Assembly: GCA_024280265.1 (NCBI GenBank)
Contig: JAJRQL010000076.1
Span: 1 to 39,396, forward strand
DNA: 39,396 nucleotides
DNA from: Deltaproteobacteria bacterium
GTDB taxonomy: Bacteria; Desulfobacterota; Desulfobulbia; Desulfobulbales; Desulfocapsaceae
Direction of reading: 5' to 3'
This document shows, piece after piece, positions 4,403-38,764 of this stretch. Position 1 is the first letter of the stretch; each line of letters opens with the position of its first letter. Made by a program: the position numbers and the translations under genes. The notes beneath the pieces are model-generated. The model was not told the DNA's origin. It worked only from the letters and a program-made list of their open reading frames with translations, and searched no databases.

Positions 4403-5752
4403 ATGAGTATGAAGGAAGAACGTTTTCGGCTGCAGACCAGTGAACTTGATAAGCTGGCTCAGCAGTTACTGCATATTGAAAATGAACTGAATTCAAATAT
4501 CCCTGTTACTCTTTGGATCAGTGATCTTCATGGAGAGGGCGACCGGTTCATGGCAATCCTTCGAGGTCGTTTTGGTATGCTTTACCAGACATGCCGTGAA
4601 GCACTCCCCAAAACATTTAGCATCAATAAGGTTCAGTACCTCACTAAAATTATACGGAAAAAGAATTTTTTTGTTGATGAGAACGTCCAGATGGACACTC
4701 AGGATGTAATATTCTGTCTAGTCGAAATTTTGAAATATCGTCTGGCTAATATCAGGCATCGTACTAAAAACATCTTTCCTCCAGAATTCCGAAATACCAT
4801 AAAGAGGTTAATCTCCGGACTACCAGTACCTGATCAGGTGTTTGAGGAACGGGTACTTTCTGAACGACTCATCAGTCATCTTGCCCACAGTATCCGTCAA
4901 GTGCTCCTTGATCGTATTCAGGTACTTGGCGATGTTTTTGACCGCGGTGCACAACCTGATAAGATCATACGTATTCTTTCGTCTCCAGCATACAGGGATA
5001 TGGTTGACTATGTTTTTGGCAATCATGATATATTATGGATGGGGGCGGTTTCAGGTAATAAATCGCTGGTTGCTGAGGCCATCAGGATTACATGTCGCTA
5101 TGACCATTTTGAACTTTTGGAAAGACTTGGGGTTGATAGCTCACGTTTGGCTGCATTTGCTGAGAGAACCTATCCTGTAGAGAGAGTGACTGGTAAAATT
5201 AAGGCCAGGACCAACAAGGGCCGGTGCATGGAAAAGGCGCTGGCTGTTATTCAGTTTAAATTCGAAGAACAGACCATTGGGAAATTCCCCGAATATGGAA
5301 TGCAATCGAGATTGTGGCTGGAACGTCTTGCCGCAATGCTTGCTACTGGTGATACAGCAGGGCTTAATGATACGCATTTTCCAACTGTGGATCTGAAAAA
5401 CCCAGCTGCCTTGACCCATGAAGAACAGGAAATAATAGATGATCTGAGTCGCCAGTTTTCAGAAAATAAAAAAATAAGGAGACTGCTCAGTTATTTTTTC
5501 AAAAATGGAAAAACATACCATATTCATAACAATAGCCTCAATATCCACGCCCTGGTGCCATCAAACGAAGATGGTGAGTTTGAGGCGTTTCTTGGTAAGA
5601 GTGGGCGTGAATTACTTGATTTTGTGCAGGAAACAATAGTGCGTGTCGGGAAAAATATCTTAATGGTGAGGAGCAGGATGAACAGGATCAGGCACTCTTT
5701 TTTTACCTCTGGTGCGGCCCGAAGTCACCCTTTTTTGGCAAACATGCCATGA
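4403..5752 (+). CDS. fbp: Class III fructose-1,6-bisphosphatase, 5' part of a frameshifted gene
   Basis: This frame carries most of a Firmicutes-type (class III) fructose-1,6-bisphosphatase, the gluconeogenic enzyme hydrolysing fructose-1,6-bisphosphate. Metallophosphatase motifs are intact: [11 protein letters not shown] near residue 39, [12 protein letters not shown] near 175, [11 protein letters not shown] near 210, and [15 protein letters not shown] near 372. A better start than the first ATG is probably the second at 4409, six bases after AGGAG. Up to about 5640 the frame aligns with the family. The last 30-35 residues (from about [12 protein letters not shown] on) are foreign, because the true continuation ([23 protein letters not shown]) lies in another frame. 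A loss of one base, or gain of two, between about 5622 and 5690 explains this. As written, the product lacks the C-terminal third of the catalytic core. Confidence 0.85.
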
Positions 5753-6219
5753 AAACCTTTGAGAGATATTTTCTCCTTGACCCTGACAGTCATACAGAAC
5801 GTACTCTTTATTGGAAAAAAAATCTTAACACCCCGCAATTTAAAAAGAAACTTCAGGAAGAATTCGGAATTCAGCGAGTCGTGTATGGTCATACTCCTGT
5901 TGATTACAGCAAGGGAAAATCCATGGCATCTCCCGACGGGGTTGCAATTAATGTTGATGGTGGTTTTGCCGCTGCTTACTATAATCGTGGTCATGCGCTG
6001 GTTCATACTCCATATCAGCTTTTTGGTATTATTCTGCCGACACCTGAAGAGATGCAGGAAGCAGCGCAGAACCTCTAGTCTGCACCACTTGATATTGAAC
6101 TTATTGATGAGTTCAGGCAGGCAATGAAGATAAAGGATACTGCAAAAGGAGTACTTCTTAAGCGGCAGAGCGAAGCTTTGTTGCGTAGAATCAGGGAATT
6201 GACAGATGACTATGCCTGA
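5749..6219 (+). pseudogene. fbp: Class III fructose-1,6-bisphosphatase, 3' part with in-frame TAG
   Basis: This is the missing C-terminal region of the FBPase. The frame is open from about 5622 and reads [19 protein letters not shown], then [20 protein letters not shown] and [21 protein letters not shown], all strongly family-like. The ATG at 5749 (in HAMKTF) is an internal methionine, not a native start; from it 109 codons run to TAG at 6076-6078. After the TAG the same frame stays open for 46 codons to TGA at 6217-6219 and still resembles the family tail (DIELIDEFRQAMKIKDTAKG, then LLRRIRELTDDYA). Adding this tail gives about 605 codons overall, close to class III enzymes at about 640-670. 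The gene thus has two separate lesions and is best called a pseudogene, unless the sequence is in error. Confidence 0.8.
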
Positions 6220-6252: not shown

Positions 6253-7200
6253 ATGAATATTAATTACGGGATGGAAATAGTCAGAGCCACTGAGATTGCA
6301 GCACTTACTGCCGCCAGGATTCAGGGACTCGGTAATCATGGTGATATTCTCAATCAGGCAAGATCGGCAATCATTAAGACCCTCAACCGACTGATGATTA
6401 CTGGTAACGTGGTTAATGATCGCTTCTCTGGAAGAGAGGGAGTGTGTCAGCTGCCAGAGAGACTAGGTGAGGGTGGACCGGATATGGATCTGATGGTTGT
6501 GGCACTGGAGGCTCACCATGCTGCTGCAGATGGTCGCAATAATGCGACGTCGTATACAGTTATTGTAGAGGATGGCTCAATTCAGTCAGTCCCTAATCTG
6601 CATATGTATAAAATTGTTGTCGGACCACAGGTTGGTGAAGTAATAGATATCAATCAATCGCCTACCGCAAATGTGAAGCGGGTAGCCAGAGTGTTACGAA
6701 AATATACTGAAAACGTCACAGTTTGTATTTTAAATCGCAAAAGGCACCTGAATCTTATCAGTGAGGTGCGGAGCTGCGGGGCTCGGATAAAACTGATCGA
6801 AGAGGGTGAAATCTCTGGTTGCCTTGCTGCAATTAATGGTGAGAAGGCTGATATTTATATGGGCTACGGGTTTGCTCCTGAAGGAACTGTTGTTGCTGCC
6901 GCAATCAGTTGCCTTGGAGGGTACCTCGAGGGCAAGATATCATACGAATCTGAGCAGGATAAAAAACAGGCCTGCGAGCATGGTATTCATGATTTTGACA
7001 AGGTGTTCAGAGTGGAAAATCTGATCGATTCGCGGAAGATTTCTTTTGCCGCAACTGGTGTTACGGATGGGGAGTTTCTTGAAGGGGTACGGTTTACTGC
7101 AACGGGTGCTGTGACAAATTCATTTATTGCGAGAAGTGAGACCCGTACCTACAGAAACCTGATCACCAGGCATTTCTTTGATTATAATCCGGTTTTTTAG
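6253..7200 (+). CDS. GlpX-like (class II FBPase) protein lacking key catalytic residues
   Basis: A 315-residue relative of class II fructose-1,6-bisphosphatase (GlpX). The ATG at 6253 (MNINYGMEIVRATEIAALTA) aligns with the family start; an in-frame TTG two codons earlier is less likely. Conserved family blocks are visible: VRATEIAALTAAR, KTLNRLMITGNVV, MYKIVVGP, RKRHLNLISE, YMGYGFAPEGTV, SFAATGVTDGEFLEGVRF. The metal and substrate motifs are altered. The usual GEGExDEAPML is replaced by NDRFSGREGVCQL, and the usual DxAVDPxEGT by MDLMVVALEAH, so the Asp equivalent to E. coli Asp85 and the following Gly-Thr are gone. The Glu of APEG remains. It is probably inactive as an FBPase or has another role. 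It follows the broken FBPase by 33 bases, suggesting a former operon. Confidence 0.75.
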   Translation: MNINYGMEIVRATEIAALTAARIQGLGNHGDILNQARSAIIKTLNRLMITGNVVNDRFSGREGVCQLPERLGEGGPDMDLMVVALEAHHAAADGRNNATSYTVIVEDGSIQSVPNLHMYKIVVGPQVGEVIDINQSPTANVKRVARVLRKYTENVTVCILNRKRHLNLISEVRSCGARIKLIEEGEISGCLAAINGEKADIYMGYGFAPEGTVVAAAISCLGGYLEGKISYESEQDKKQACEHGIHDFDKVFRVENLIDSRKISFAATGVTDGEFLEGVRFTATGAVTNSFIARSETRTYRNLITRHFFDYNPVF

Positions 7201-8326: not shown

Positions 8327-9145
8327 TTAGAGACGTGGCAGTCGTTTTAATGAGAGTTGCTGGGCCACTTGAGTTGCGGTTTCCTCAATGGAGCGGCCAT
8401 CGGAAACAATTATTGGGATATTGTAGTTGAGGAAAATCTGATTTGCCTGATTAAGTTCATTGGTGCAGGTGGCGAGCTTGGCGTAGGAGCTGCCTTTGTA
8501 TCGTTTCTCCCGCACGAAATGAAGGGTCTCAGGTGTGGTTGTCAGGCCAATAGCTCTGTTCTTGTTTCGGATTATGGCAGAGGGTAGGCGATAAGAATTA
8601 AGGTCTTCAGCCACAAGTGGGTAGTTTGCTGCTTTTATTCCCATTTGGGTGGCAAGGTAGACAGAGATGGGAGTCTTCCCAGATCGGGAGACACCGAGCA
8701 GAATGACCTCTGCCTCGTCATAATCTTTGAGGCGTGAGCCATCGTCATGGGCGATACAATATTGGATTGCAGTGACCCTGCTTGCCATGGTTGAGTCGTC
8801 TAGGTGCCTGGAAGTGCCTGATATCCTGATGGGCTTAGCTTCCAAAACATTTTCCAGCCGCTCCAGATATTTATCACAGATGTTGAAAAATTCCACCTCA
8901 GGGACATCAAGAATTGTGATCAGTTTCTTGTTCATGATTGTTGAAAAAACAAGGGGGAAGCGGCCGGTTGATTGGGATAGAATATAGTCTATGGCCTTTT
9001 TCGCATCTTCTTCAGTTCTAATAAAAGGAATTTTTTCAGCATTGAAACTGATTTCTGGAAACTGGCAAAGAAGCGATTTCCCAAGGTCTTCAGCAAGAAT
9101 TCCTGTGCTCCCTGACAGGTAGTATACATCTTTTGAGTGCCACAT
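8327..9145 (-). CDS. ppsR: PEP synthase regulatory protein (kinase/pyrophosphorylase)
   Basis: A 272-residue DUF299-family protein. Members reversibly phosphorylate a Thr in phosphoenolpyruvate synthase (or pyruvate, phosphate dikinase), using ADP for inactivation and phosphate for reactivation, and so switch the gluconeogenic step. Visible hallmarks are the start VYYLSGSTGILAEDLGKSLL, the central RxxAIQYCIAHDDG region, the P-loop GVSRSGKT at 151-158, and the later segments YPLVAEDL and KRYKGSSYA. The start is supported by GGAGA nine bases upstream. It is transcribed away from the divergent Cys-cluster gene at 9259. The fit to the family is close and full length. Its target gene is not in the window. 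Confidence 0.9.
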   Translation of the reverse strand: MWHSKDVYYLSGSTGILAEDLGKSLLCQFPEISFNAEKIPFIRTEEDAKKAIDYILSQSTGRFPLVFSTIMNKKLITILDVPEVEFFNICDKYLERLENVLEAKPIRISGTSRHLDDSTMASRVTAIQYCIAHDDGSRLKDYDEAEVILLGVSRSGKTPISVYLATQMGIKAANYPLVAEDLNSYRLPSAIIRNKNRAIGLTTTPETLHFVREKRYKGSSYAKLATCTNELNQANQIFLNYNIPIIVSDGRSIEETATQVAQQLSLKRLPRL

Positions 9146-9258: not shown

Positions 9259-9711
9259 ATGATCAGATTTTTCAGAATCCTTTCAACATATTCGCCACTT
9301 GGGCTTATCCGGTATTTTCGGATGCGCCTTATGGGAAGAGAGCTCCTGGTGACTGGAAGCTGTAACTGCTGTGGCGACTGTTGCAGGAAGATAAATCTTG
9401 AGGGCGCAAGGGGGTGGCTGAGGTCTGACAGGGAATTTGCAGATATGGTAAATGATTTTCCTGAATATGAGAGGTTTGTGGTTTCCGGCAAGGACAGCCA
9501 GGGCTTTCTGCAATTTTCGTGTACCTGGCTTACCGAAAAAGGCGGCTGCCAGAACCATGATAACAGGCTGCCACTCTGTAGAAAATTTCCCGACAAGAGT
9601 CTTCATTTTTGTGGTGGAATGTTACCTGACGGATGTGGGTATTCTATCAGTGAAGTCAAGCCATTCAAAAAATACCTGGATGATTTCACAGGAATTGAAG
9701 GTGAACAGTGA
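9259..9711 (+). CDS. YkgJ-type Cys-cluster protein
   Basis: A 150-residue protein of the YkgJ/CxxCxxCC family. The signature cluster SCNCCGDCCRKI is at about 34-45, followed by more cysteines in FSCTWL, GGCQNHDNRLPLCRKFP and FCGG...DGCGYSI. This pattern suggests a bound zinc or iron-sulfur cofactor; the biochemical role of the family is not established. The region before the cluster is basic and aromatic (RFFRILSTYSPLGLIRYFRMRLMG). The start could instead be the internal ATG at 9322 or 9331. The stop overlaps the start of the glycosyltransferase gene by four bases (GTGA), so the two are co-translated. Confidence 0.82.
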   Translation: MIRFFRILSTYSPLGLIRYFRMRLMGRELLVTGSCNCCGDCCRKINLEGARGWLRSDREFADMVNDFPEYERFVVSGKDSQGFLQFSCTWLTEKGGCQNHDNRLPLCRKFPDKSLHFCGGMLPDGCGYSISEVKPFKKYLDDFTGIEGEQ

Positions 9712-10820
9712 AACGGGTATTAATTCTTGAGCCCTATTTTGGCGGATCCCATAAAGCGTTTCTAGAGGGTTTACAGCAGGCAGTTTCTGCCGAATTCACC
9801 TTGCTGACCCTTCCGGCCAGAAAGTGGAAAATGAGGATGCAACTCTCTGCGTATTGGTTTGCACAGGAAATTGAGAAATATGCAGTGAGACAGAGGTCCT
9901 TTGATACAGTTCTCTGTTCAACATTTGTAGATGTGGCAGCATTGCGATCTCTTTTGGCACAGATAGCTGGCTGGAACCAGCACGCGAAAGTCATAACCTA
10001 CTTTCATGAAAATCAGTTCGCTTACCCGGCTCAGAAGAATGCGCCTGATATTCGTCAATTTTCTGCGCTTAATCTGAGTACAGCCATGGCCTCAGATCTC
10101 TGTATATTTAACTCGAAATATAATATGGAATCGTTTTTGGGAGCTATTCAGTCTTTTCTGAAAAAGGCTTCTGATATGAAACCTCTCAACTCTGTTGAGG
10201 TATTACGGGAAAAGAGTATTATTCTTTATCCGGGGATGGATTATTCGGGTATTGATGATGTTGAAGAGCGATCCAGAAAGAAAATGACTGATGTAACAAC
10301 CATCGTCTGGAATCATCGCTGGGAACATGATAAAGGGCCGGAGTTGTTTTTTGAGGCCCTGTATATTATTCAGGAAAAGAGGATTCCTTTTCATCTCATC
10401 GTTCTTGGACAATCGTTTGGGGATCGTCCCGGGTGTTTTTATGAGGCATCTGTGAGGCTGAGTGAAGAGATTGTTCATTTCGGTTATGTTGAAACATCCT
10501 CGGAGTACGCTCAATTGCTGCATCGGGGTGATGTTATTGTCTCAACAGCCCGGCATGAATTTTTTGGGATTTCCGTTGTCGAAGGAATCAGGGCAGGTTG
10601 TTATCCGCTGCTCCCCAATGACCTTTCCTATCCAGAACTGTATCAGGAAGAGTTTTTGTATGAGCCTGGAAGACTCGCTGGAAAACTTCATGATTTTCTG
10701 TTACAGCCCGCCACATTAAGCTGGGAAGATATTAAAAAAATAACTGAACCTTTTGCCTGGGTGTGTTGTGGCAGGCAATATGAAGAATGCTTGCTGGAAC
10801 CCCGAATGGAGAAAGTATGA
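9708..10820 (+). CDS. QTMAN/GTDC1-like glycosyltransferase (tRNA-queuosine mannosyltransferase homologue)
   Basis: A 370-residue GT-B fold glycosyltransferase most like animal GTDC1/QTMAN, which adds mannose to queuosine in the anticodon of tRNA-Asp. Segments resembling that family occur in order: LILEPYFGGSHKAFLEGL (about 5-22), LTLPARKWKMRM, STFVDVAALRSL, ITYFHENQFAYP (about 97-108), DLCIFNSKYNMESFL, the hinge with WNHRWEHDKGPELFF, and near the end VIVSTARHEFFGISVVEGI with CYPLLPNDLSYPELY. The EFFGISVVE block is the usual donor-site motif. It overlaps the Cys-cluster gene upstream and the shikimate kinase gene downstream, each by four bases. That it acts on bacterial queuosine tRNA is an inference from homology alone; another nucleotide-mannose acceptor remains possible. 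No queuosine synthesis gene is in the window. Confidence 0.78.
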   Translation: MKRVLILEPYFGGSHKAFLEGLQQAVSAEFTLLTLPARKWKMRMQLSAYWFAQEIEKYAVRQRSFDTVLCSTFVDVAALRSLLAQIAGWNQHAKVITYFHENQFAYPAQKNAPDIRQFSALNLSTAMASDLCIFNSKYNMESFLGAIQSFLKKASDMKPLNSVEVLREKSIILYPGMDYSGIDDVEERSRKKMTDVTTIVWNHRWEHDKGPELFFEALYIIQEKRIPFHLIVLGQSFGDRPGCFYEASVRLSEEIVHFGYVETSSEYAQLLHRGDVIVSTARHEFFGISVVEGIRAGCYPLLPNDLSYPELYQEEFLYEPGRLAGKLHDFLLQPATLSWEDIKKITEPFAWVCCGRQYEECLLEPRMEKV

Positions 10821-11350
10821 CTGGAAATATTGTGTTGATTGGATTCATGGGAGTTGGAAAGGGAAGGACTGCCCGGATGCTTGCCCGGAAGAGTGGTATG
10901 TTTGGGGTTGACTGCGATGATCTCATAGAGAGTTTTTCCAACAAAAGGGTGAAAAAGATTTTTTCAAAGATGGGTGAACCATGGTTCCGGGAACTTGAAC
11001 GCCAGGTTGCAGTGTGGCTGGAACAAAAGGTTTCTGATACCATTATTTCCACTGGAGGTGGTTTTTTTAATGTCCCCAATATCAAAAAAATAGGGACAGT
11101 GGTATATCTCCATTCCGATTTTGACGTAATTATTGAGGCCCTTTCTTCACATCCCAATGCAAAGAAGAAGCTTAAAAAGCGACCACTGTTAAAAGACTTG
11201 GGCAGCGCCAGGCAACTATATGAAAAGAGGTTACCTCTATACCGGAAAACAGCTTCTGTGGAAGTCCAGGTGGGTGGTCGCAGTATTGAGGAGGTAGCCG
11301 ATGAAATCATAGCCCTGACAGGAATCAGGTTTTTTAATTCAAATTATTGA
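10817..11350 (+). CDS. aroK: Shikimate kinase
   Basis: A 177-residue shikimate kinase, which phosphorylates shikimate at the 3-OH in aromatic amino-acid synthesis. The ATG at 10817 overlaps the previous stop and is preceded by GGAG, so it is preferred to an in-frame ATG 30 bases upstream. Motifs: P-loop GFMGVGKG (9-16), DCDD (32-35) for Mg and shikimate, FRELE with Arg58, TGGGFF (79-84), lid region KKRPLL (120-125) and YEKRLPLYRKTA. The P-loop is unusual: the Thr/Ser that normally follows GK and binds Mg is Gly16, then RT. The rest is canonical. It is followed after 7 bases by gpmI and is part of one plus-strand operon from 9259. Confidence 0.87.
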   Translation: MTGNIVLIGFMGVGKGRTARMLARKSGMFGVDCDDLIESFSNKRVKKIFSKMGEPWFRELERQVAVWLEQKVSDTIISTGGGFFNVPNIKKIGTVVYLHSDFDVIIEALSSHPNAKKKLKKRPLLKDLGSARQLYEKRLPLYRKTASVEVQVGGRSIEEVADEIIALTGIRFFNSNY

Positions 11351-11357
11351 GGAATAT

Positions 11358-12986
11358 ATGTCTGATTTATCACTTCAGGAGTTACCTGGTCATAAAGAGA
11401 TTGCGGGACCAGTGGTTACGGTGATCATGGATGGGGTCGGGCTTGGTGCTGACGAAGAATTCAATGGGGTGCATATGGCTTATACCCCTGTGTTGGATGA
11501 ACTGCTGCAGGGAAGTCTTGTGACAAGTATCAAAGCTCATGGAACTGCCGTGGGGTTACCAACTGACGGGGATATGGGAAATTCAGAAGTTGGGCATAAT
11601 GCGCTGGGAGCAGGCAGAATCTTTTCTCAGGGGGCAAAGCTTGTTAATGAAGCCCTGTATTCCGGAGATCTTTTCAGTGGTGAATCCTGGAAAGAAATTA
11701 TAAGGAGGGCAGCAGCGGGTGGTACGGTGCATTTTATAGGTCTTGTCTCAGATGGAAATGTGCACAGTCACATTGATCAATTAACTCAGATGATTGAGAG
11801 GTGCAGAAAGGACGGCGTGAAGCGATTGAGGGTTCATGGTCTTCTGGATGGTCGTGATGTTGCTCCAAAGAGCGGTCTTGATTTTTTTGCACCTCTGGAA
11901 GCAGAACTCACCGAACTATCAAAAGAAGGTAGGGATTACTGTATCGCATCGGGCGGTGGTCGGATGCTTGTGACAATGGATCGCTACGGAGCCGATTGGA
12001 GTATAGTTGAAAGGGGGTGGCAGGCGCATGTTCTTGGGATTGGTCAGGCCTTTGGTTCAGCCACGGAAGCCATAAAGACCTTTTATCGTGAAGATCCTGA
12101 AATGACAGATCAGTATATGGATAGTTTTGTGATACATCGTGACGGGAAAGCAGTAGGAACGATAGAGGATGGTGATGCGGTGGTTCTTTTTAATTTTCGC
12201 GGTGATCGCTCCATCGAGATCTCCAGGGCATTCGATGATGATGAATTTGAATGGTTTGACCGGGTGCGCAGGCCTGAAGTTTTTTTCGCGGGAATGATGC
12301 AGTATGATGGTGATGCCATGATACCAAAGAACTACCTGGTTGAGCCACCAGTCATAGATCGAACCCTTGGCGAATATCTTTGTGGTAATGGAATTACCTC
12401 CTATGCTATTTCAGAGACTCAGAAATTTGGGCATGTAACCTATTTCTGGAATGGCAACAAGTCTGGATACCTTGATGAAACGTTGGAAAAATATGTTGAG
12501 ATAGAGTCTGATCGGGTGACTTTTGATCTGCGCCCATGGATGAAAGCTTCTGAGATTACGGATAATGTTATTGAAGCTATTAAGAGTGGAAAGTTCAGGT
12601 TCATACGTCTTAACTATGCCAATGGTGATATGGTCGGTCATACTGGTGTCCCGATTTCTGTGAGAATTGCGGTGGAAACTGTCGATCTGATGCTTAAGAG
12701 AGTACTGCCTGAACTGAAAAAGGCACAGGGTATTGCAGTTATTACCGCAGATCATGGTAATGCCGACTGTATGTGGACAGAAAAAGATGGAACCCGAACC
12801 CCCATGGTCGCTCATACAAAAAATCCTGTGCCGTTGATTGTGAAGGATTTTTCTGGGGAAAATGCATTTGTTCTACAAGATGTAAAAGATGCCGGGCTGG
12901 CAAATGTTGCAGCTACTATTATCAATCTCCTGGGGTTTGAAGCCCCGGCGGATTATCAGCCGTCATTGATTAGGTTGCGTTCGTAA
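11358..12986 (+). CDS. gpmI: Cofactor-independent phosphoglycerate mutase
   Basis: A 542-residue 2,3-bisphosphoglycerate-independent phosphoglycerate mutase, interconverting 3- and 2-phosphoglycerate in glycolysis and gluconeogenesis. The alkaline-phosphatase-like metal sites are clear: VIMDGVGLG with Asp25, the phosphoserine Ser76 in DMGNSEVGHNALG, LLDGRDVAPKSG, FNFRGDRSIEI, and C-terminal ITADHGNADCM with MVAHTKNPVPLI. Its length is somewhat above the usual 510-515, because of the N-terminal extension and insertions around NGNKSGYLDE. A GAGGAAT ribosome site precedes the ATG. It is the last gene of the operon 9259-12986. Confidence 0.94.
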   Translation: MSDLSLQELPGHKEIAGPVVTVIMDGVGLGADEEFNGVHMAYTPVLDELLQGSLVTSIKAHGTAVGLPTDGDMGNSEVGHNALGAGRIFSQGAKLVNEALYSGDLFSGESWKEIIRRAAAGGTVHFIGLVSDGNVHSHIDQLTQMIERCRKDGVKRLRVHGLLDGRDVAPKSGLDFFAPLEAELTELSKEGRDYCIASGGGRMLVTMDRYGADWSIVERGWQAHVLGIGQAFGSATEAIKTFYREDPEMTDQYMDSFVIHRDGKAVGTIEDGDAVVLFNFRGDRSIEISRAFDDDEFEWFDRVRRPEVFFAGMMQYDGDAMIPKNYLVEPPVIDRTLGEYLCGNGITSYAISETQKFGHVTYFWNGNKSGYLDETLEKYVEIESDRVTFDLRPWMKASEITDNVIEAIKSGKFRFIRLNYANGDMVGHTGVPISVRIAVETVDLMLKRVLPELKKAQGIAVITADHGNADCMWTEKDGTRTPMVAHTKNPVPLIVKDFSGENAFVLQDVKDAGLANVAATIINLLGFEAPADYQPSLIRLRS

Positions 12987-13594: not shown

Positions 13595-13974
13595 GTTTTT
13601 CACTCTTCAAGATATCTTTGTCACCGTCTCTTTTTTTTTCTGTACAATTCTTTTCTCCTCCAGTTGGTGTTTCATTGCTTTTAGCAATTATTGCAGTACT
13701 GCTTGTGTATCCATGGTCAGTGTCCCTGTAAATTTCTGTTTTCTGAAAAGCTTGCTGGTATCCAGAACTATTATACGTTATTCTTCTATATAATACCCGA
13801 ACCCGTTGGTGTTTGACGGTGAACAAGACGGAAATTGCTGAACGATTTGAGGTTTCTGTCAGTTTGTCTTGTTTGATGATGCATAAATGAAGATGCTGAA
13901 TCGTTGGATCTGCCAAGTTGCCAGGACTCTCGCTAATTGTTAGAGTCTCGCCTAATTGTATACAGGAGTATAAT
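13595..13974. other. 380-base intergenic region before the unknown 569-residue gene
   Basis: No credible gene: open frames on both strands here have no family-like sequence. A perfect -10 like TATAAT is present at 13789-13794, but no good -35 box lies 16-18 bases upstream. A pair of near-identical direct repeats lies at 13928-13959, reported separately. Confidence 0.4.
13928..13959 (+). repeat. Tandem direct repeat upstream of the 569-residue gene
   Basis: TCTCGCTAATTGT (13928-13940) recurs as TCTCGCCTAATTGT (13946-13959), differing by one inserted C, with starts 18 bases apart. The second copy ends 15 bases before the ATG. A GACTCT/AGAGTC inverted pair (13925-13930, 13942-13947) overlaps the first copy. 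Placement just before the ribosome site suggests an operator or translational control site, but a chance duplication cannot be excluded. Confidence 0.35.
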
Positions 13975-15684
13975 ATGGAAGAACTTTCCAAATCTCAACG
14001 AGCCCGACTTGCAATCAGAACTTTTAAGACCATCGCCGATGCGTTGATTCTTCGTGGTTATTATAAACCCTCAGGGCGATCTGGTGAGAAATTATCAGAA
14101 TCTCTGCAGCAGTTTGACCCTGAAATATATGGTTCCATGAGTGATCACCGCATTGTGGAATTAAAAGGGCTTGAGTATGTTATGGACAGGATGCCGCGTG
14201 GCATTGAAAAATGTAATCGTATTATTATGACTGCTGATGAAGATTTTCGTGAGACCTCTTTTGAGAAAATCACCCCCCTCAAGAGAAGAAGACATTCCTA
14301 TATTGTCTCCGATAAGGAAATCTGTTTTGTGATCACCCGCGGCCTCACCGAGATTTACGATATCATAACCAATATTACCTTTCTGAATATCGAATCCCAG
14401 AAAATTCACAGACAGATATGCCATAAGGAGGTGGGGACCTGTTCCGAGTGGCGTGAACTGGAAAACATTGTTCAGAATGAAATAGATTTTAAAGGTCCTG
14501 CCCTTGACCAGGCAATATGGAATCTTTCAATTATACTTGGCAGAACGTACCGCGAAACTCGTGAAACTTATGAAAACTTTGAGATACACCATAAAAAGAA
14601 CGGAAACTACAATAATGGTCTGTTCGGTATTATTTATGGGATGGGAAACAGGATAATAGAAGAGGCTAAATCTAAAGACACTCTGCTTACCATCTATTTC
14701 ACTCCTTCACTTCATGAGATGATAGGACGGCACAAGTATGCAACGCTTTGGGCAAAAAATATTAAACGTAATCTGCATACTTTGGGATTTAGAAAGCGCA
14801 GCATTCATGTGGTCAGCGCTAATATGCATTCAATGAAAAATATCTTTTATGGAGCCGGGTATTTAAAAAACAAAGGGAAGGAAGCACCAGGAGACCTCTA
14901 TGTTATGGCCGCAGAGTTGAGATACCTTGAGGATGAAGTCAGTGATTATGCCTCTGCGTTCGGTTTTACTTACCTTAGTGACACTTCGGAATCGAATATT
15001 GATGTCATGATATTTGACACCTCAAAAATCACCAAATATAATCTCCACGAATCCATCAAATGTGATTATGATTATGTTAAAAAAGAGAAACCGGTAATAG
15101 TTGTCATAGACTATGCTTTTGGTGCTCAGGCTTATGATATTCTGGATGAACTACTCTGTCCCTGTCATTTTGACGATCAGACGGTATCGTTCAAGATAGA
15201 TTCGGTCAATATTATGGGGAAAGCAGGTACGTTACCTGGTGAAAAGGGTGATATTATGCTTGCCACAGCCCATGTGATGGAGGGCACTGCCAACAACTAC
15301 ATCGTTGACAATGATCTTGATGTCGATGATTTTGATAAAGGCTATCCGATCCATGTTGGCCCAATGGTTACTGTCCTTGGAACATCACTGCAAAACAGGC
15401 ATGTTCTGGCGCGATTCCACACTTCAAACTGGAAGGCAGTTGGGCTTGAAATGGAGGGAGGGCATTATCAACGAGCAATCAGCGCAGCTATAATCCAGGG
15501 GCACATTTCAAGGGATATAAAAACCCGCTATGCTTATTATGCCTCAGACAACCCTCTTCATATCGGTGAAACTCTGGCATCAGGCTCACTTGGTGATGAT
15601 GGAATTACCCCAACTTATATGATTACCAAAGTCCTGTTGCATAAAATAATCAACCCTCCCACTGCCAATACATGCGAATTGTAA
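13975..15684 (+). CDS. Large uncharacterised protein (DUF6909-like), nucleosidase-like motifs near C-terminus
   Basis: A 569-residue soluble protein. The ATG at 13975 is preceded by CAGGAG and fits better than an upstream in-frame ATG at 13918. I believe it belongs to the uncharacterised DUF6909 family, but this rests on memory of the family and is tentative. The N-terminal half is helical and charged (SKSQRARLAIRTFKTIADAL, then SHRIVELKGLEYVMDRMPRG-like text). The C-terminal part has alternating beta strands (PVIVVIDYAFGAQAYDILDE, GPMVTVLGTSL) and, at about 490-494 and 524-525, GLEMEGGHY followed by YASDNPL. A Met-Glu then Ser-Asp order is typical of the nucleoside phosphorylase superfamily, so a nucleotide- or nucleoside-binding role is possible. 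The gene overlaps the following histidine kinase by 13 bases. Confidence 0.7.
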   Translation: MEELSKSQRARLAIRTFKTIADALILRGYYKPSGRSGEKLSESLQQFDPEIYGSMSDHRIVELKGLEYVMDRMPRGIEKCNRIIMTADEDFRETSFEKITPLKRRRHSYIVSDKEICFVITRGLTEIYDIITNITFLNIESQKIHRQICHKEVGTCSEWRELENIVQNEIDFKGPALDQAIWNLSIILGRTYRETRETYENFEIHHKKNGNYNNGLFGIIYGMGNRIIEEAKSKDTLLTIYFTPSLHEMIGRHKYATLWAKNIKRNLHTLGFRKRSIHVVSANMHSMKNIFYGAGYLKNKGKEAPGDLYVMAAELRYLEDEVSDYASAFGFTYLSDTSESNIDVMIFDTSKITKYNLHESIKCDYDYVKKEKPVIVVIDYAFGAQAYDILDELLCPCHFDDQTVSFKIDSVNIMGKAGTLPGEKGDIMLATAHVMEGTANNYIVDNDLDVDDFDKGYPIHVGPMVTVLGTSLQNRHVLARFHTSNWKAVGLEMEGGHYQRAISAAIIQGHISRDIKTRYAYYASDNPLHIGETLASGSLGDDGITPTYMITKVLLHKIINPPTANTCEL

Positions 15685-33580: not shown

Positions 33581-34374
33581 ACATCATAGCGACTGTTTTT
33601 CATTGTAATGACATGGCTTGGAGTAATTCCGCTGAGTGTTGGTGCTCCTTTTGGTCTTTTAACGACCACACGATTGCTTGCATATTCAAGTGCTGTGTCG
33701 AGAAGTTTTGCCGCATCAAGGTCATCACCTACAAGGAAACGGATCATGCGCATTTCCAGTTTGTTCAATGCAGATTTGGAGCTGTGGGGGTACATGGGGT
33801 CAAGGTATATGGTATGGGCAGCGGTGGTCTCTCTTATGATTTTTGCCGCGTCGCCTTTTACAAGAGTCATCATCTCTTTGACAGAGAATGGGAGGGATTG
33901 GCCCTGGATTGCTCGTTCAAGGCCGTCCACTAACAGAGCGGCAAGGACAGGGGATCGTTCGATCATCGTAACCTTGCAGCCGAGTGAGCTAAGTAAAAAG
34001 CTGTCTTTTCCGAGCCCTGCTGTGGCGTCTATGATATGTGGTCGAAACCCTGGTTTGATTCCTATTGCCCTGGCAATTGCCTGTTTAATCCCTCCACCGT
34101 GTTGCCTCCGGTAGTTGAGCGCATCTGAGAGAAAATCCACATGAAGGTTTGAGGTGTTATGGCGTTTACCGTCTTGTTTCAGTTGTATTTGTAGTCCTTT
34201 TTCCGTATATAGTAGGAGCGGATTGTATTTATGTCGCCTGTGTGCGTCTACGAGCTTTATCTGTAGCAATTCAGCAAGATGTGCCGCCTTCTTGTGGAGT
34301 ATGCCGGAGTAGTTGCTGTCGGCTGGGATGGCAGTAATGGCGGTGTTACTGCATGTGCTGAAGTTGTCTTTCAT
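33568..34374 (-). CDS. rsmJ: 16S rRNA guanine-1516 N2-methyltransferase
   Basis: A 268-residue S-adenosylmethionine-dependent enzyme that methylates N2 of G1516 in 16S rRNA. Family blocks: HVDFLSDALNYRRQHGGGI (about 78-96), the AdoMet site IIDATAGLGKDSFLLSSLG (114-132), MIERSPVLAALLVDGLERA, the catalytic LDPMYPHSSKSAL (191-203) in the manner of N2-guanine methylases, and VVVKRPKGAPTL. The ATG at 34374 is chosen because its N-terminus is near the usual family length; the frame opens further upstream at a TTG (34428). No good ribosome site is seen for either. It is divergent from kdsB. Confidence 0.88.
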   Translation of the reverse strand: MKDNFSTCSNTAITAIPADSNYSGILHKKAAHLAELLQIKLVDAHRRHKYNPLLLYTEKGLQIQLKQDGKRHNTSNLHVDFLSDALNYRRQHGGGIKQAIARAIGIKPGFRPHIIDATAGLGKDSFLLSSLGCKVTMIERSPVLAALLVDGLERAIQGQSLPFSVKEMMTLVKGDAAKIIRETTAAHTIYLDPMYPHSSKSALNKLEMRMIRFLVGDDLDAAKLLDTALEYASNRVVVKRPKGAPTLSGITPSHVITMKNSRYDVYMI

Positions 34375-34539
34375 GATACGGTAAGAAAATTTGTGGCAGA
34401 AGTTATTACATCTCAGAAAAACAAACAAATCTCTTTTGTAAGTCTTTACAGTAAGGAATGTGTTTGCTACGGATCGGCATTTTTCAGCTCAGCTGCGGTA
34501 GACCAACACTATTTTAATAATTACTTAAAACAGATCAAG

Positions 34540-35313
34540 ATGGAAACAGAAAAAGAACATAAGGTGGAAGTTGTGGCGATTATTCCGGCACGCTATCATT
34601 CCAATAGATTTGAGGGGAAGCCGCTGGCTTTGATTAATGGGAAGCCGATGATACAACACGTGGTTGAGAGGGCTCAGACTGTATCCTTGTTGAGCAGGGT
34701 GGTTGTTGCCACTGACGATCAGAGGATTGCTGACTGTGTGGCTGAATTTGGAGGGGAATGTGTTATAACCCGAAATGATCATGTATCCGGGTCAGACAGG
34801 CTTGCAGAAGCTGCAGAACTCCTCGACATTTCGGAGCATGATGTTGTGGTAAACATTCAGGGAGATCAGCCGCTGTTTGATGCAGAAGTTATTGAACAGG
34901 TGGCAGGTCCATTAATTCATGACCCTTCACTTCCCATGGCCACATTGATTTATAAGATTGTACGGCCTGAGGAAATTGATGATCCCAACCATGTCAAGAC
35001 CGTATTTGACCATGAAAACAATGCCCTCTATTTCTCCAGATCACCGATACCGTTTCAACGGAATCCTGAGGAGGAGGTGACGCCCACATATTATAAACAT
35101 CTTGGGTTTTATGCCTACCGGAAGGGGTTTTTGCTTACTTTTGTGGCTCTTCCTGAAGGGGAGTGGGAACGTTTTGAAAAACTGGAGCAACTTCGTGTCC
35201 TGGAATATGGCTACAGGATTAAAGTCGTACTCACGGAGCATGATTCCATTGAAGTGGATACCCCTGAAGATTTGAAAAGGGTTGAAGAATTTATTATAAG
35301 CAAAAACAGATAA
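34540..35313 (+). CDS. kdsB: 3-deoxy-manno-octulosonate cytidylyltransferase
   Basis: A 257-residue CMP-Kdo synthetase, which activates Kdo with CTP for lipid A-core lipopolysaccharide. Motifs: AIIPARYHSNRFEGKPLALI (about 13-32), VVVATDDQRIADCV, VSGSDRLAEAA, VNIQGDQPLFD with the metal-binding Asp, YFSRSPIPF, GFYAYRKGFLLTF, EQLRVLEYGYRIKV and the end IEVDTPEDLKRVE. The start at 34540 gives the usual length; the frame continues open upstream but that part is not family-like. Its presence implies a Gram-negative envelope. The next gene, mdh, is about 200 bases away, with no obvious terminator between. Confidence 0.94.
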   Translation: METEKEHKVEVVAIIPARYHSNRFEGKPLALINGKPMIQHVVERAQTVSLLSRVVVATDDQRIADCVAEFGGECVITRNDHVSGSDRLAEAAELLDISEHDVVVNIQGDQPLFDAEVIEQVAGPLIHDPSLPMATLIYKIVRPEEIDDPNHVKTVFDHENNALYFSRSPIPFQRNPEEEVTPTYYKHLGFYAYRKGFLLTFVALPEGEWERFEKLEQLRVLEYGYRIKVVLTEHDSIEVDTPEDLKRVEEFIISKNR

Positions 35314-35407
35314 AAGTATTCCTGTCAGGCAGGATAGAAAAAGTAACTGATGCCTGTTCAGAAATGGCCTTTTCCTCCTAACTCTTCGTTGCTTTAAAGA
35401 TTTTATC

Positions 35408-35422
35408 ATTGGAATATCCAAT
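35408..35422. repeat. Palindrome upstream of mdh
   Basis: ATTGGA (35408-35413), ATA, then TCCAAT (35417-35422) form a perfect inverted repeat with a 3-base centre, about 90 bases before the mdh start. Short symmetrical arms like this suit a dimeric regulator, but no regulator can be named and a chance palindrome of this size is plausible in AT-rich DNA. Confidence 0.3.
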
Positions 35423-35510
35423 ATATGCCTACGGTAAAATTTCTTCTGCGCCTCGATTTAGAAGAAAAAATCTCATTTCTGGGCGGACACTAACTGAAAA
35501 AGGATATTAA

Positions 35511-36437
35511 ATGCGAAAGAAAATAACAATTATCGGTGCTGGTAATGTGGGTGCTACTGCAGCTCACTGGGCTGCTACAAAAAATCTTGGTGATATTGTA
35601 CTGCTTGATGTGGCTGAAGGAATTCCACAGGGTAAGGCACTCGACCTGTCACAGTCCGGCCCGATTGAAGGGTTTTATTTTAAGGTTACAGGCAGCAACG
35701 ATTACGCCGATACCGCTGATTCTGATGTTGTAATTATCTCAGCGGGACTTGCCCGGAAACCTGGAATGTCCAGAGATGACCTTCTTGCCAAAAATGTGGC
35801 CATTGTGAAATCCTGTGCTGAAGAGGCAGTTAAACACTCACCTGACTGTGTACTTATAGTGGTAACCAATCCCATTGATGCCATGGTTCACACTGCCTTC
35901 AAGGTAACGGGACATCCCAAAGAGAAGGTTATTGGTATGGCTGGCGTTCTTGATTCCGCACGTTATCGCACTTTTCTTGCTGAGGCCATCGGAGTGGCGC
36001 CTAAAGACGTGAACGCCCTGGTACTTGGTATCCATGGTGATAATATGATGCCCATGGTTCGTCTTGCAAATGTTGCCGGTGTTCCCGTAACCGATCTCCT
36101 TTCAATTGAAGAGATTGACGCCATTGTTCACAGGACCCAGACCGGTGGGCTTGAAATCGTCAACCACTTGAAAACTGGTTCTGCATTTTACACTCCAGGG
36201 CTTGCAGCAGTGGAGATGGCGGAGGCTGTTCTTACGGATTCCAAGCGTGTTTTGCCATGTGCAGCATACCTGGAAGGTGAATTTGGAGTTTCCGGATATT
36301 TTCTTGGAGTTCCTGTTGTTATTGGTGAGAAGGGTGTTGAAAAAATACTTGAGTTTGAACTCACTGATGAAGAAAAAGAAGCCTTGCAGCTCTCTGTCAA
36401 GGCTGTTGCAGGCCAGATGGAAGCTACAGGATTATAA
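35511..36437 (+). CDS. mdh: Malate dehydrogenase
   Basis: A 308-residue NAD-dependent malate dehydrogenase of the lactate-dehydrogenase-like group, interconverting malate and oxaloacetate. The Rossmann motif is [14 protein letters not shown] (about 7-20), with Asp33 (LLDVAEG) selecting NAD. The substrate loop [12 protein letters not shown] carries Arg82 and Arg88, the pair expected for malate rather than lactate. Arg151 (VLDSARYR) and catalytic His175 (GIHGDNMMP) are present. A GGATATTAA site precedes the ATG. It is followed after 5 bases by the YvcK-like gene, whose TTG start suggests translational coupling. Confidence 0.95.
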
Positions 36438-36442
36438 GAGCC

Positions 36443-38764
36443 TTGGAAAAGGATAAAAACAGGTGCTCAGCTCTGTCTGGTGTTGCCGCAGGTCTGGAAC
36501 GTATAGATAGAAAGGCTCTATCGCCTCTGGATCTGCTGCCTCACACGGATATCCATGAAAAGCTTGTGGAACTGGTACTGAGTGGTGTACCTGATGGCGT
36601 ACCACCTGAAACGGCCGCAGAACTTGAACAGATACGTGGTGAGCTTTCCAGGGAGCCGGTCAGCGATCTCAATGTTGTCGTATTTGGTGGAGGGACAGGG
36701 CTTTCAACCATTATCGGCGGAGACAGTCGGGCCAAATCCTGGATAAAAGATCCTTTTTCCGGGCTGAAGTGTCTTTTCCCAAAAACCAGATCCATTATCT
36801 GTATAACCGATGACGGAGGCTCAACGGGTGAGCTGCTCAAAGACTTTCCACTCATTGCTCTTGGTGATATTCGCCATGTCCTGCTCTCTTCTATTCAGTT
36901 GGCAAAGCTTCAGGATCTGTATGGTCTGTCCGAGAGGCAGTCGGCGCGATGTGTCCGGGTACTGGCCGAAATGTTCAATTATCGATTTGTCTCCGCACCT
37001 GTCAACAGCAGGCAGCTCCTCGATGATTGTGGACTTAGCAAAAGTGGAAATGAACTTCCGGAGCTTATTCGGGGGATGCTTGAGCGTATTATTGAAAACC
37101 TTTTCGTTGATAAAAGGCTCCTGGTAACCCTGAAAAGACCTCATTGTCTTGGTAATCTTATCCTTGTGTCCTCAATTTATGAACAGATTCCAGTTCAGTA
37201 TAGTAACGAACAACTCCTCAAAGAATCTGATCTTATTCGACAAAATCTCCACCGTGGAATCGGCGCACTCTGTGTAATTCTTGGTGCCGATGAAGAGGCA
37301 GTCATACCATGTACCTATGTTCCGGCAGAACTCAGTCTACGATACAGCAACGGGGTTCAGGTTACAGGTGAACATAAATCTGGACATGCCAGACGAGGCT
37401 ATCCTGTGGAGAGTGTCCATATAAACTTCTGTAAAGAACCAGAGGTGAGTGATGAAGTACTTGCTTTGATTGATACAGCCGATGTCATGATTATGGCGCC
37501 GGGGAGTTTGTACAGTTCACTTATCCCTATCTTTCAAGTTCCCGGAATCGCGGAGGCTGTAAAAAATAACAGCCATGCGTTGAAAATCCTGGTTTCAAAT
37601 CTATGGGTTCAAGCAGGTGAAACGGATCACAGTATATCTGAACCCGATCGTAAGTTTCACCTCTCAGACCTGTTAAAAGCCTATGAGCGCAATATCCCGG
37701 GAGGGACCGAGGGGCTGTTCAGCAAGGTACTCTGCCTTTCCTTTAAAGATGTTCCGGCAACCATTATTCAAAATTATGCGGTGGAGGGTAAAATCCCTAT
37801 TTATCTTGACCGGGAAGAGGTGCTGCAGCAGGGAATGTTTCCACTGGAATGCGGTATCTATTCAACAGGCTCTCTGAGAGAGCAAGGAGTGATACGGCAC
37901 GATCCGAGGCAGTTCTCTTTTGTTGTCAGGACGTTATGGTCAATTTTTTCCAGTGGCCGTGAGCGCGCCGATCCAATCAGGAAGACTCTCTGCCAGGTTG
38001 ATAATGGGAATAAATATCTAACTTCAATGGAAATCCCCTGTCTCAGATACCTGGAAATTCAGGAATATCTGGCTGGTATCAGCATTAAACTCGAAGGTGT
38101 GTCCCAGGAAAAGACGGATGAAATACGAGAAACCATAAAGAACATTCTCTGGAATCATAAGGACATCCCTCTTGACCATCTACAATTTGTGAAGGGTGTT
38201 CAGTGTGTTGCCACCAGGCACTGGAAGCGTAATCAGAACTGGGATAAAGTCTTTTCCTTCTATGACCCGAACGATTCGCTGTTAAAAATACGCCAGGATC
38301 AGTTTGATTCTGCAGCCAGGCTTGAAGTTGCTTTTCTGGTGGCCTTAGGTCAGGGGTTGTTGGGGAATTATGCTGCCCACAAAGAGATTCATCCGGTGAA
38401 GTCTAATGATATTTTGCTCGGAAAATCCTACCATCTTCATCTCAAACCGATTACAGAGAGGAAATGTTATTTCACGCCAGAGGATCTCGCGTCCTACTTA
38501 AAACTTGCCAGAATGGTCCCGGATCCCGCGAATGAAAATCATTTTACCCGGTTGGTTAACGGTGATGAGGGTTTCACTCCTCCCGGCTTACTCATGGGCT
38601 TGACCTATGCCTGGTACCTTGATAACCGTTTTGCCTCTCATATTGAATATAAAATGGCAGTCTTGAAAATTGATCATTCTGACCTCATCCCAGAACAGGT
38701 TCGCATGAAGAGCAGAAGGGAGAAGTTGACCGTTTTTTTCAGAGAAGTGGTTTTTGGTCATTGA
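36443..38764 (+). CDS. YvcK/CofD-like protein with long C-terminal extension
   Basis: A 773-residue protein. The start is a TTG five bases after the mdh stop. After a leader of about 75 residues comes a domain of the YvcK/CofD superfamily: VVVFGGGTGLSTII (78-91), ITDDGGSTGELLKDFPLIALGDIRHVLL (121-148, as two motifs, DDGGSTG and GDIRHVLL), then VMIMAPGSLYSSLIPIFQVPGI and NLWVQAGETD. In YvcK this fold binds UDP-sugars and controls carbon flux and cell shape; in CofD it binds the lactyl-phosphate acceptor. The catalytic role here is unknown. From about 480 onward (some 290 residues) there is an extra domain not in normal YvcK, with ECGIYSTGSLRE, VQCVATRHWKRNQNWDK and LLMGLTYAWYLDNRF. It may relate to the CofD-like proteins of the GAK gene set, but I am not sure. 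Confidence 0.78.
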   Translation: MEKDKNRCSALSGVAAGLERIDRKALSPLDLLPHTDIHEKLVELVLSGVPDGVPPETAAELEQIRGELSREPVSDLNVVVFGGGTGLSTIIGGDSRAKSWIKDPFSGLKCLFPKTRSIICITDDGGSTGELLKDFPLIALGDIRHVLLSSIQLAKLQDLYGLSERQSARCVRVLAEMFNYRFVSAPVNSRQLLDDCGLSKSGNELPELIRGMLERIIENLFVDKRLLVTLKRPHCLGNLILVSSIYEQIPVQYSNEQLLKESDLIRQNLHRGIGALCVILGADEEAVIPCTYVPAELSLRYSNGVQVTGEHKSGHARRGYPVESVHINFCKEPEVSDEVLALIDTADVMIMAPGSLYSSLIPIFQVPGIAEAVKNNSHALKILVSNLWVQAGETDHSISEPDRKFHLSDLLKAYERNIPGGTEGLFSKVLCLSFKDVPATIIQNYAVEGKIPIYLDREEVLQQGMFPLECGIYSTGSLREQGVIRHDPRQFSFVVRTLWSIFSSGRERADPIRKTLCQVDNGNKYLTSMEIPCLRYLEIQEYLAGISIKLEGVSQEKTDEIRETIKNILWNHKDIPLDHLQFVKGVQCVATRHWKRNQNWDKVFSFYDPNDSLLKIRQDQFDSAARLEVAFLVALGQGLLGNYAAHKEIHPVKSNDILLGKSYHLHLKPITERKCYFTPEDLASYLKLARMVPDPANENHFTRLVNGDEGFTPPGLLMGLTYAWYLDNRFASHIEYKMAVLKIDHSDLIPEQVRMKSRREKLTVFFREVVFGH

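Follow-up and report, generated by a model that had tools for sequence, protein, structure and literature searches.

A QTMAN-family glycosyltransferase gene in a Desulfocapsaceae genome and its possible role in sugar modification of tRNA queuosine in bacteria

The closest described counterpart of the protein discussed here is the animal tRNA-queuosine mannosyltransferase QTMAN (GTDC1), which was reportedly described by Zhao et al. in 2023 (in Cell). QTGAL (B3GNTL1) belongs to a different glycosyltransferase family, and GluQRS, the bacterial glutamyl-Q tRNA-Asp synthetase, is an unrelated protein which adds glutamate and not a sugar. Its target is likewise queuosine at position 34 (Q34), in tRNA-Asp. 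Published work cites Zhao et al. 2023 for the animal enzyme (PMC12313893), gives the linkage of mannosyl-queuosine (manQ) as an alpha-mannoside (PMC8654956, PMC12518689), and states that QTGAL, which acts on tRNA-Tyr, likewise places a sugar on Q34 (PMC12313893, PMC12518689), as a beta-galactose on the other hydroxyl (PMC12518689). A 2020 review excludes ManQ and GalQ from bacteria and places glutamyl-Q there (PMC7694415), and a 2024 review describes sugar-modified Q in vertebrates, with glutamyl-Q only known in bacteria (PMC12710937). No paper on a bacterial QTMAN was found by title or by the start of the abstract in a body of literature with few subscription papers or preprints.

The DNA analysed here (the window) is a stretch of 39,396 nucleotides from the genome of a sulfur-metabolising deltaproteobacterium of the Desulfocapsaceae. 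At 9708-10820 on the forward strand it contains a 370 amino acid open reading frame with a GTG start, whose product, judged by its sequence, is a further member of the already known QTMAN family. The Pfam model QTMAN_N (PF12038) matched residues 3-177 (9714-10238, forward strand) over model positions 1-168 of 168, with 191.3 bits against a cut-off of 25; at E = 1.4e-56 this match is therefore far beyond chance. Glycos_transf_1 matched residues 191-320 (10278-10667, forward strand) with 41.8 bits (cut-off 26.4). The first half would be the acceptor half, and the second, GT4 half, for which profile matches in the PDB include PimA, is the sugar-nucleotide half. An earlier note on this DNA had proposed a homologue of the animal mannosyltransferase on the strength of four blocks (FGGSHK, FHENQ, WNHRWEHDK and TARHEFFG), all of which are present in this reading frame in the order given, and the proposal is borne out by QTMAN_N being the best family, with no curated GT4 equivalog over its cut-off (the best NCBIfam score was 26.3 bits, the cut-offs being 400 and 550). 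The note had also raised the prospect of an ordinary GT4 family as best match; this applies to the C-terminal half, where the match is generic GT4, and not to the N-terminal half, where QTMAN_N is best. All 94 members of our protein alignment (A2, window included) matched QTMAN_N, 30 of these being the window or sequences fetched with that model and only 64 independent of it. With animal QTMAN the protein shares the whole-length N-terminal model match, the GT4 C-terminal half and the EX7E retaining motif (a likeness judged through the Pfam model and not pairwise against an animal sequence), and it differs in being bacterial, its activity, sugar and tRNA being predictions only. Membership in the QTMAN family is thus well supported, and because Pfam names the family after QTMAN, annotation pipelines may already give the gene that name.

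We consider it probable that this protein is a retaining GT4 enzyme of the GT-B fold which glycosylates Q34 of tRNA, with mannose as the likeliest sugar. It would take a hexose, mannose (from GDP-mannose) being the likeliest, and attach it to one of the cyclopentene-ring hydroxyls of queuosine (or of epoxyqueuosine, oQ) at position 34 of a tRNA with a GUN anticodon, most likely tRNA-Asp. We infer for it the queuosine-tRNA acceptor, the identity of sugar and tRNA and any influence on NAU/NAC decoding, and bacterial mannosyl-queuosine is a prediction.

An AlphaFold2 model made with the 94-sequence alignment (pLDDT 95.0, pTM 0.92) has a predicted GT-B fold, and its top structural matches were GT4-type enzymes of several donor kinds, aligned over the whole length. 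Mannosyltransferases stood among these top matches (7qsg, Z 29.1; PimB' with GDP-Man, 3oka, Z 27.2; PimA, 2gej, Z 24.6), and because many of the others use other sugar nucleotides, including UDP-sugars, the donor cannot be read from the fold. PimB' is a GDP-mannose-dependent mannosyltransferase with phosphatidylinositol as its acceptor. PimA and PimB' share the fold with the window protein and differ from it by their 14-17% identity to it and their lipid acceptor, phosphatidylinositol. In the profile alignment with PimA, R204 and K209 of the window protein fall upon an Arg and a Lys, and E284-x7-E292 upon the EX7E motif; in PimA these residues bind the sugar nucleotide. No solved QTMAN structure was found by sequence profile or among the fold matches listed; one may still exist.

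Residues S14, H15, R43, H100, E101, Q103, P107, R204, W205, D208, K209, G234, Y267, G287, E292, L306 and Y308 are invariant in the alignment. They include S14 and H15 of a GGSH motif (residues 12-15; 9741-9752), H100, E101 and Q103 of an FHENQ motif (residues 99-103; 10002-10016) and R204 and K209 of an NHRWEHDK motif (residues 202-209; 10311-10334), each conserved in 94 of 94 sequences, and also E292 of the retaining GT4 EX7E motif (10557-10583), whose residue 284 is Glu in 86 sequences and Asp in 8, all four motifs lying on the forward strand. A retaining enzyme with EX7E would fit the alpha linkage of manQ.

The best-surviving alternative keeps the family and the Q34 acceptor class and supposes a sugar or tRNA other than that of the animal enzyme: the sugar might for instance be glucose, galactose or a hexosamine, and the acceptor the Q of tRNA-Tyr, tRNA-His or tRNA-Asn, or epoxyqueuosine. 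The fold matches to enzymes that use UDP-sugars, alongside those that use GDP-mannose, are in its favour, as is the identity of only 31-50% between the window protein and most of the 93 other alignment members, and the window's own genome has queA and yielded no oQ reductase (see below), so that oQ could be the acceptor. We nevertheless hold this alternative to be unlikely, as PimA, which uses GDP-mannose, was the first of the profile matches in the PDB whose title names the donor, though this match was weak (E 2e-5).

Going by sequence matches, the QTMAN family is widespread in bacteria and not rare. QTMAN_N was found in 39 of 58 sampled genomes of the window's order, in 19 of 148 from its phylum and in 16 of 296 from the phylum of genome G226 (called Actinomycetota here after a locus in G226, L077, whose record title says Aeromicrobium, and after the tree position of some members), and in none of 14 control genomes. 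Named genomes contained at least 574 confirmed relatives, and the titles of the best 80 of these include Desulfobulbaceae/Desulfocapsa, Nitrospirota, Planctomycetota, Zixibacteria, Saprospiraceae, Balneola, Spirochaetales, Chloroflexi, Actinobacteria and Cloacimonadota. In a tree of 76 sequences the window protein stands with L020, the relative closest to it (82% identity), and the two lie within a group of Desulfocapsa sequences (a set of six, 100/98). Phylum labels clustered on this tree (17 changes compared to a shuffled mean of 36.2). Among phages, 7 matched records covered 15-36% of the protein, all in the C-terminal half; none of 24 pattern-matching viral stretches encoded a relative (tblastn), and plasmids gave no match at 1e-10. 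The listed BFVD structural matches comprised glycosyltransferases, proteins without a name and proteins of other kinds.

In the phylum of G226, queA scored over its cut-off in 158 of 296 genomes, including all 16 of the QTMAN-positive ones (Fisher p = 3.3e-5, rising to 6.3e-5 once the centre genome is left out; these values treat genomes as independent, which fails for the near-copy sets G374/G404/G423 and G290/G474). Eleven of the 16 are in the tree, at five places as drawn with some forks weak, and the two largest sets of those 11 lie on either side of a starred branch (100/95), with other phyla between them, which argues against one recent inheritance. This pairing with queA, in a single phylum where queA is patchy, ties QTMAN occurrence to the Q pathway. 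A QueA-like match below the cut-off only, often near E 1e-22 to 1e-45 and perhaps to a QueA paralogue, was seen in 46 of the same 296 genomes. Of the named genomes carrying QTMAN, 50 were tested, most of them from other phyla; queA was present in 45 at E <= 1e-3 (41 of them over cut-off) and was not found in the other five (L020, L048, L083, L090 and L097, all metagenome-assembled by title). One of the carriers with queA is the cultured Desulfopila aestuarii DSM 18488 (L025). In the window's phylum tgt and queA are near-universal (146 of 148 genomes each) and co-occurrence is therefore uninformative; QueH was found there in 126 of 148 genomes and in 18 of the 19 QTMAN-positive ones, and within the window's order in 33 of 39 genomes with the glycosyltransferase gene versus 17 of 19 without it, giving no positive link.

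The earlier note had pointed to the genome's queuosine genes as a check, and this was borne out for the early steps and not for the last: the window's genome (G000; 95.97% complete, 281 contigs) contains tgt and queA, and neither QueH nor QueG was found in it (for QueG, 13 of 40 first-look candidates were scored), so that completion of Q itself is not supported there. To our knowledge QueG and QueH are the two known oQ reductases, which carry out the last step to Q. The Tgt of this genome reads ...CLDTCIPYP... and ...GGLSVGED... and keeps the Cys and Val which mark preQ1-type enzymes. QueH is present in G183, of the same genus, and absent from the congener G157 (99% complete), and a search run without a positive control did not find RdgB (Ham1p_like), which is encoded next to QueH in G183, in either G000 or G157. 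A linked loss of QueH and RdgB, an assembly gap or a novel oQ reductase are possible explanations for G000 and G157. The Cys-cluster protein encoded next to the glycosyltransferase was considered as a stand-in for QueH and ruled out, as G183 has both. The genome of L020 is apparently that of G157, and queA was not found in it; a genome of this type could depend upon queuine salvage or novel enzymes, could have these genes in assembly gaps, or could use the glycosyltransferase on another acceptor. For Q34 glycosylation, then, speak the co-occurrence with queA, tgt and queA in the window's genome and its preQ1-type Tgt residues; against it weigh the reductases not found there, the G157/L020 genome, the five named genomes with no queA match, QueH being no more frequent alongside the gene within the order, and the lack of queuosine-gene matches in its neighbourhood.

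We lean slightly towards the view that Q34 is glycosylated by QTMAN-family enzymes in no fewer than nine bacterial phyla, which would be an alternative to glutamyl-Q, the window's lineage perhaps doing so on epoxyqueuosine because no known oQ reductase was found there. If true, bacterial hexosyl-Q would represent a known modification in a new setting, would change the assignment of manQ and galQ outside bacteria made in the two reviews (PMC7694415, PMC12710937), and would mean that sugar-modified queuosine is not an animal speciality. It would also offer simple bacterial systems for studying the role of the sugar in decoding and would bear on the origin of the animal enzyme.

The glycosyltransferase gene overlaps both of its neighbours by 4 nucleotides. 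Upstream (GTGA at 9708) lies a gene for a 150 amino acid CxxCxxCC (PF03692) Cys-cluster protein (9259-9711, forward strand; just over the Pfam cut-off), and downstream (ATGA at 10817) one for a shikimate-kinase-family protein (10817-11350, forward strand; Pfam and NCBIfam), followed by one for a 2,3-bisphosphoglycerate-independent phosphoglycerate mutase (11358-12986, forward strand; Pfam and NCBIfam). The operon of these genes described in the earlier note agrees with the Pfam and NCBIfam assignments and with the overlap of the first two junctions. In a survey of 81 loci (up to 8 kb on each side, many ended by contig edges) the CxxCxxCC family occurred in 7 neighbourhoods, those of L020-L025 and of the window itself. 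Counting the window, the shikimate-kinase-like family occurred in 9 and the phosphoglycerate mutase in 8, and nearly all neighbourhoods sharing these partners belong to what title or tree marks as close relatives. Another group of loci, most of them titled Deltaproteobacteria, had an SRP54-type GTPase (11), TerB/DnaJ (10), LytB (9) and Lon (4). The SRP54-type GTPase genes, within 8 kb of the QTMAN gene, were at L030, L036, L038, L040-L042, L046, L057, L059, L088 and L091, of which L088 and L091 are from Chloroflexi. Neither set of neighbours points to tRNA, and the operon was dropped as a functional clue; a cluster of neighbours from 48 loci, which includes an antisense frame inside the window glycosyltransferase gene, was discounted as a shadow reading frame.

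The neighbourhood bears upon a second alternative, in which a GT4 enzyme with a QTMAN-like acceptor half acts on a lipid, glycan, protein or small metabolite and not on tRNA. Matches to Tgt and QueA of the window's genome and to QueH of G183 were not found near the glycosyltransferase genes (tblastn, E 1e-4, within 8 kb on each side and many stretches shorter), the operon partners look metabolic, and the G157/L020 genome has the glycosyltransferase with QueH and queA not found, all of which would suit such an acceptor. Against this, the 19 window reading frames scanned with Pfam are metabolic and signalling genes with no recognisable polysaccharide cluster among them (about ten more lay outside the scan), and their few sugar genes, a glycogen branching enzyme and a cytidylyltransferase only, are both far from the glycosyltransferase. 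As residues of the N-terminal half are invariant across at least nine phyla and queA accompanied QTMAN in 16 of 16 genomes of the phylum where queA is patchy, we think a non-tRNA acceptor improbable, somewhat more so than another sugar or tRNA.

Over 365 codons the window gene and that of L020 differ at 57, 34 and 118 first, second and third codon positions respectively, and the QTMAN-family protein is thus under purifying selection. That the reading frame is spurious or non-functional is hardly credible, being contradicted by this selection, by the confident AlphaFold fold and by the gene being intact, in the same gene order as in the window, in both congeners (G183 and G157).

ARAGORN called 9 tRNAs in the glycosyltransferase loci and none in the window, and these calls were not taken as functional evidence; a tRNA-Asp(GTC) in L057 lies inside the glycosyltransferase gene and is likely to be a false call. 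A tRNA-Asp(GTC) was called at 8775-8850 on the reverse strand of L055, approximately 2.2 kb downstream of the QTMAN gene of a Spirochaetales metagenome-assembled genome.

Elsewhere in the window, a class-3 fructose-1,6-bisphosphatase gene (FBPase_2; 4403-6078) is split into two overlapping frames of 449 and 109 amino acids, the FBPase_2 at the same place in G183 and G157 being a single open frame of 603 amino acids. A GlpX-type fructose-bisphosphatase gene (6253-7197) follows directly after the broken class-3 gene, and the same order was seen by eye in L103 and L104. An IS1595-type transposase gene (54-1004) lies at the contig edge, and a DUF6909 protein is encoded at 13918-15684, with a similar one at the same position in G183 and G157 (by eye). 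At 34279-38764 a CTP_transf_3 cytidylyltransferase gene is followed by one further gene and then by that for a 773 amino acid CofD-domain protein.
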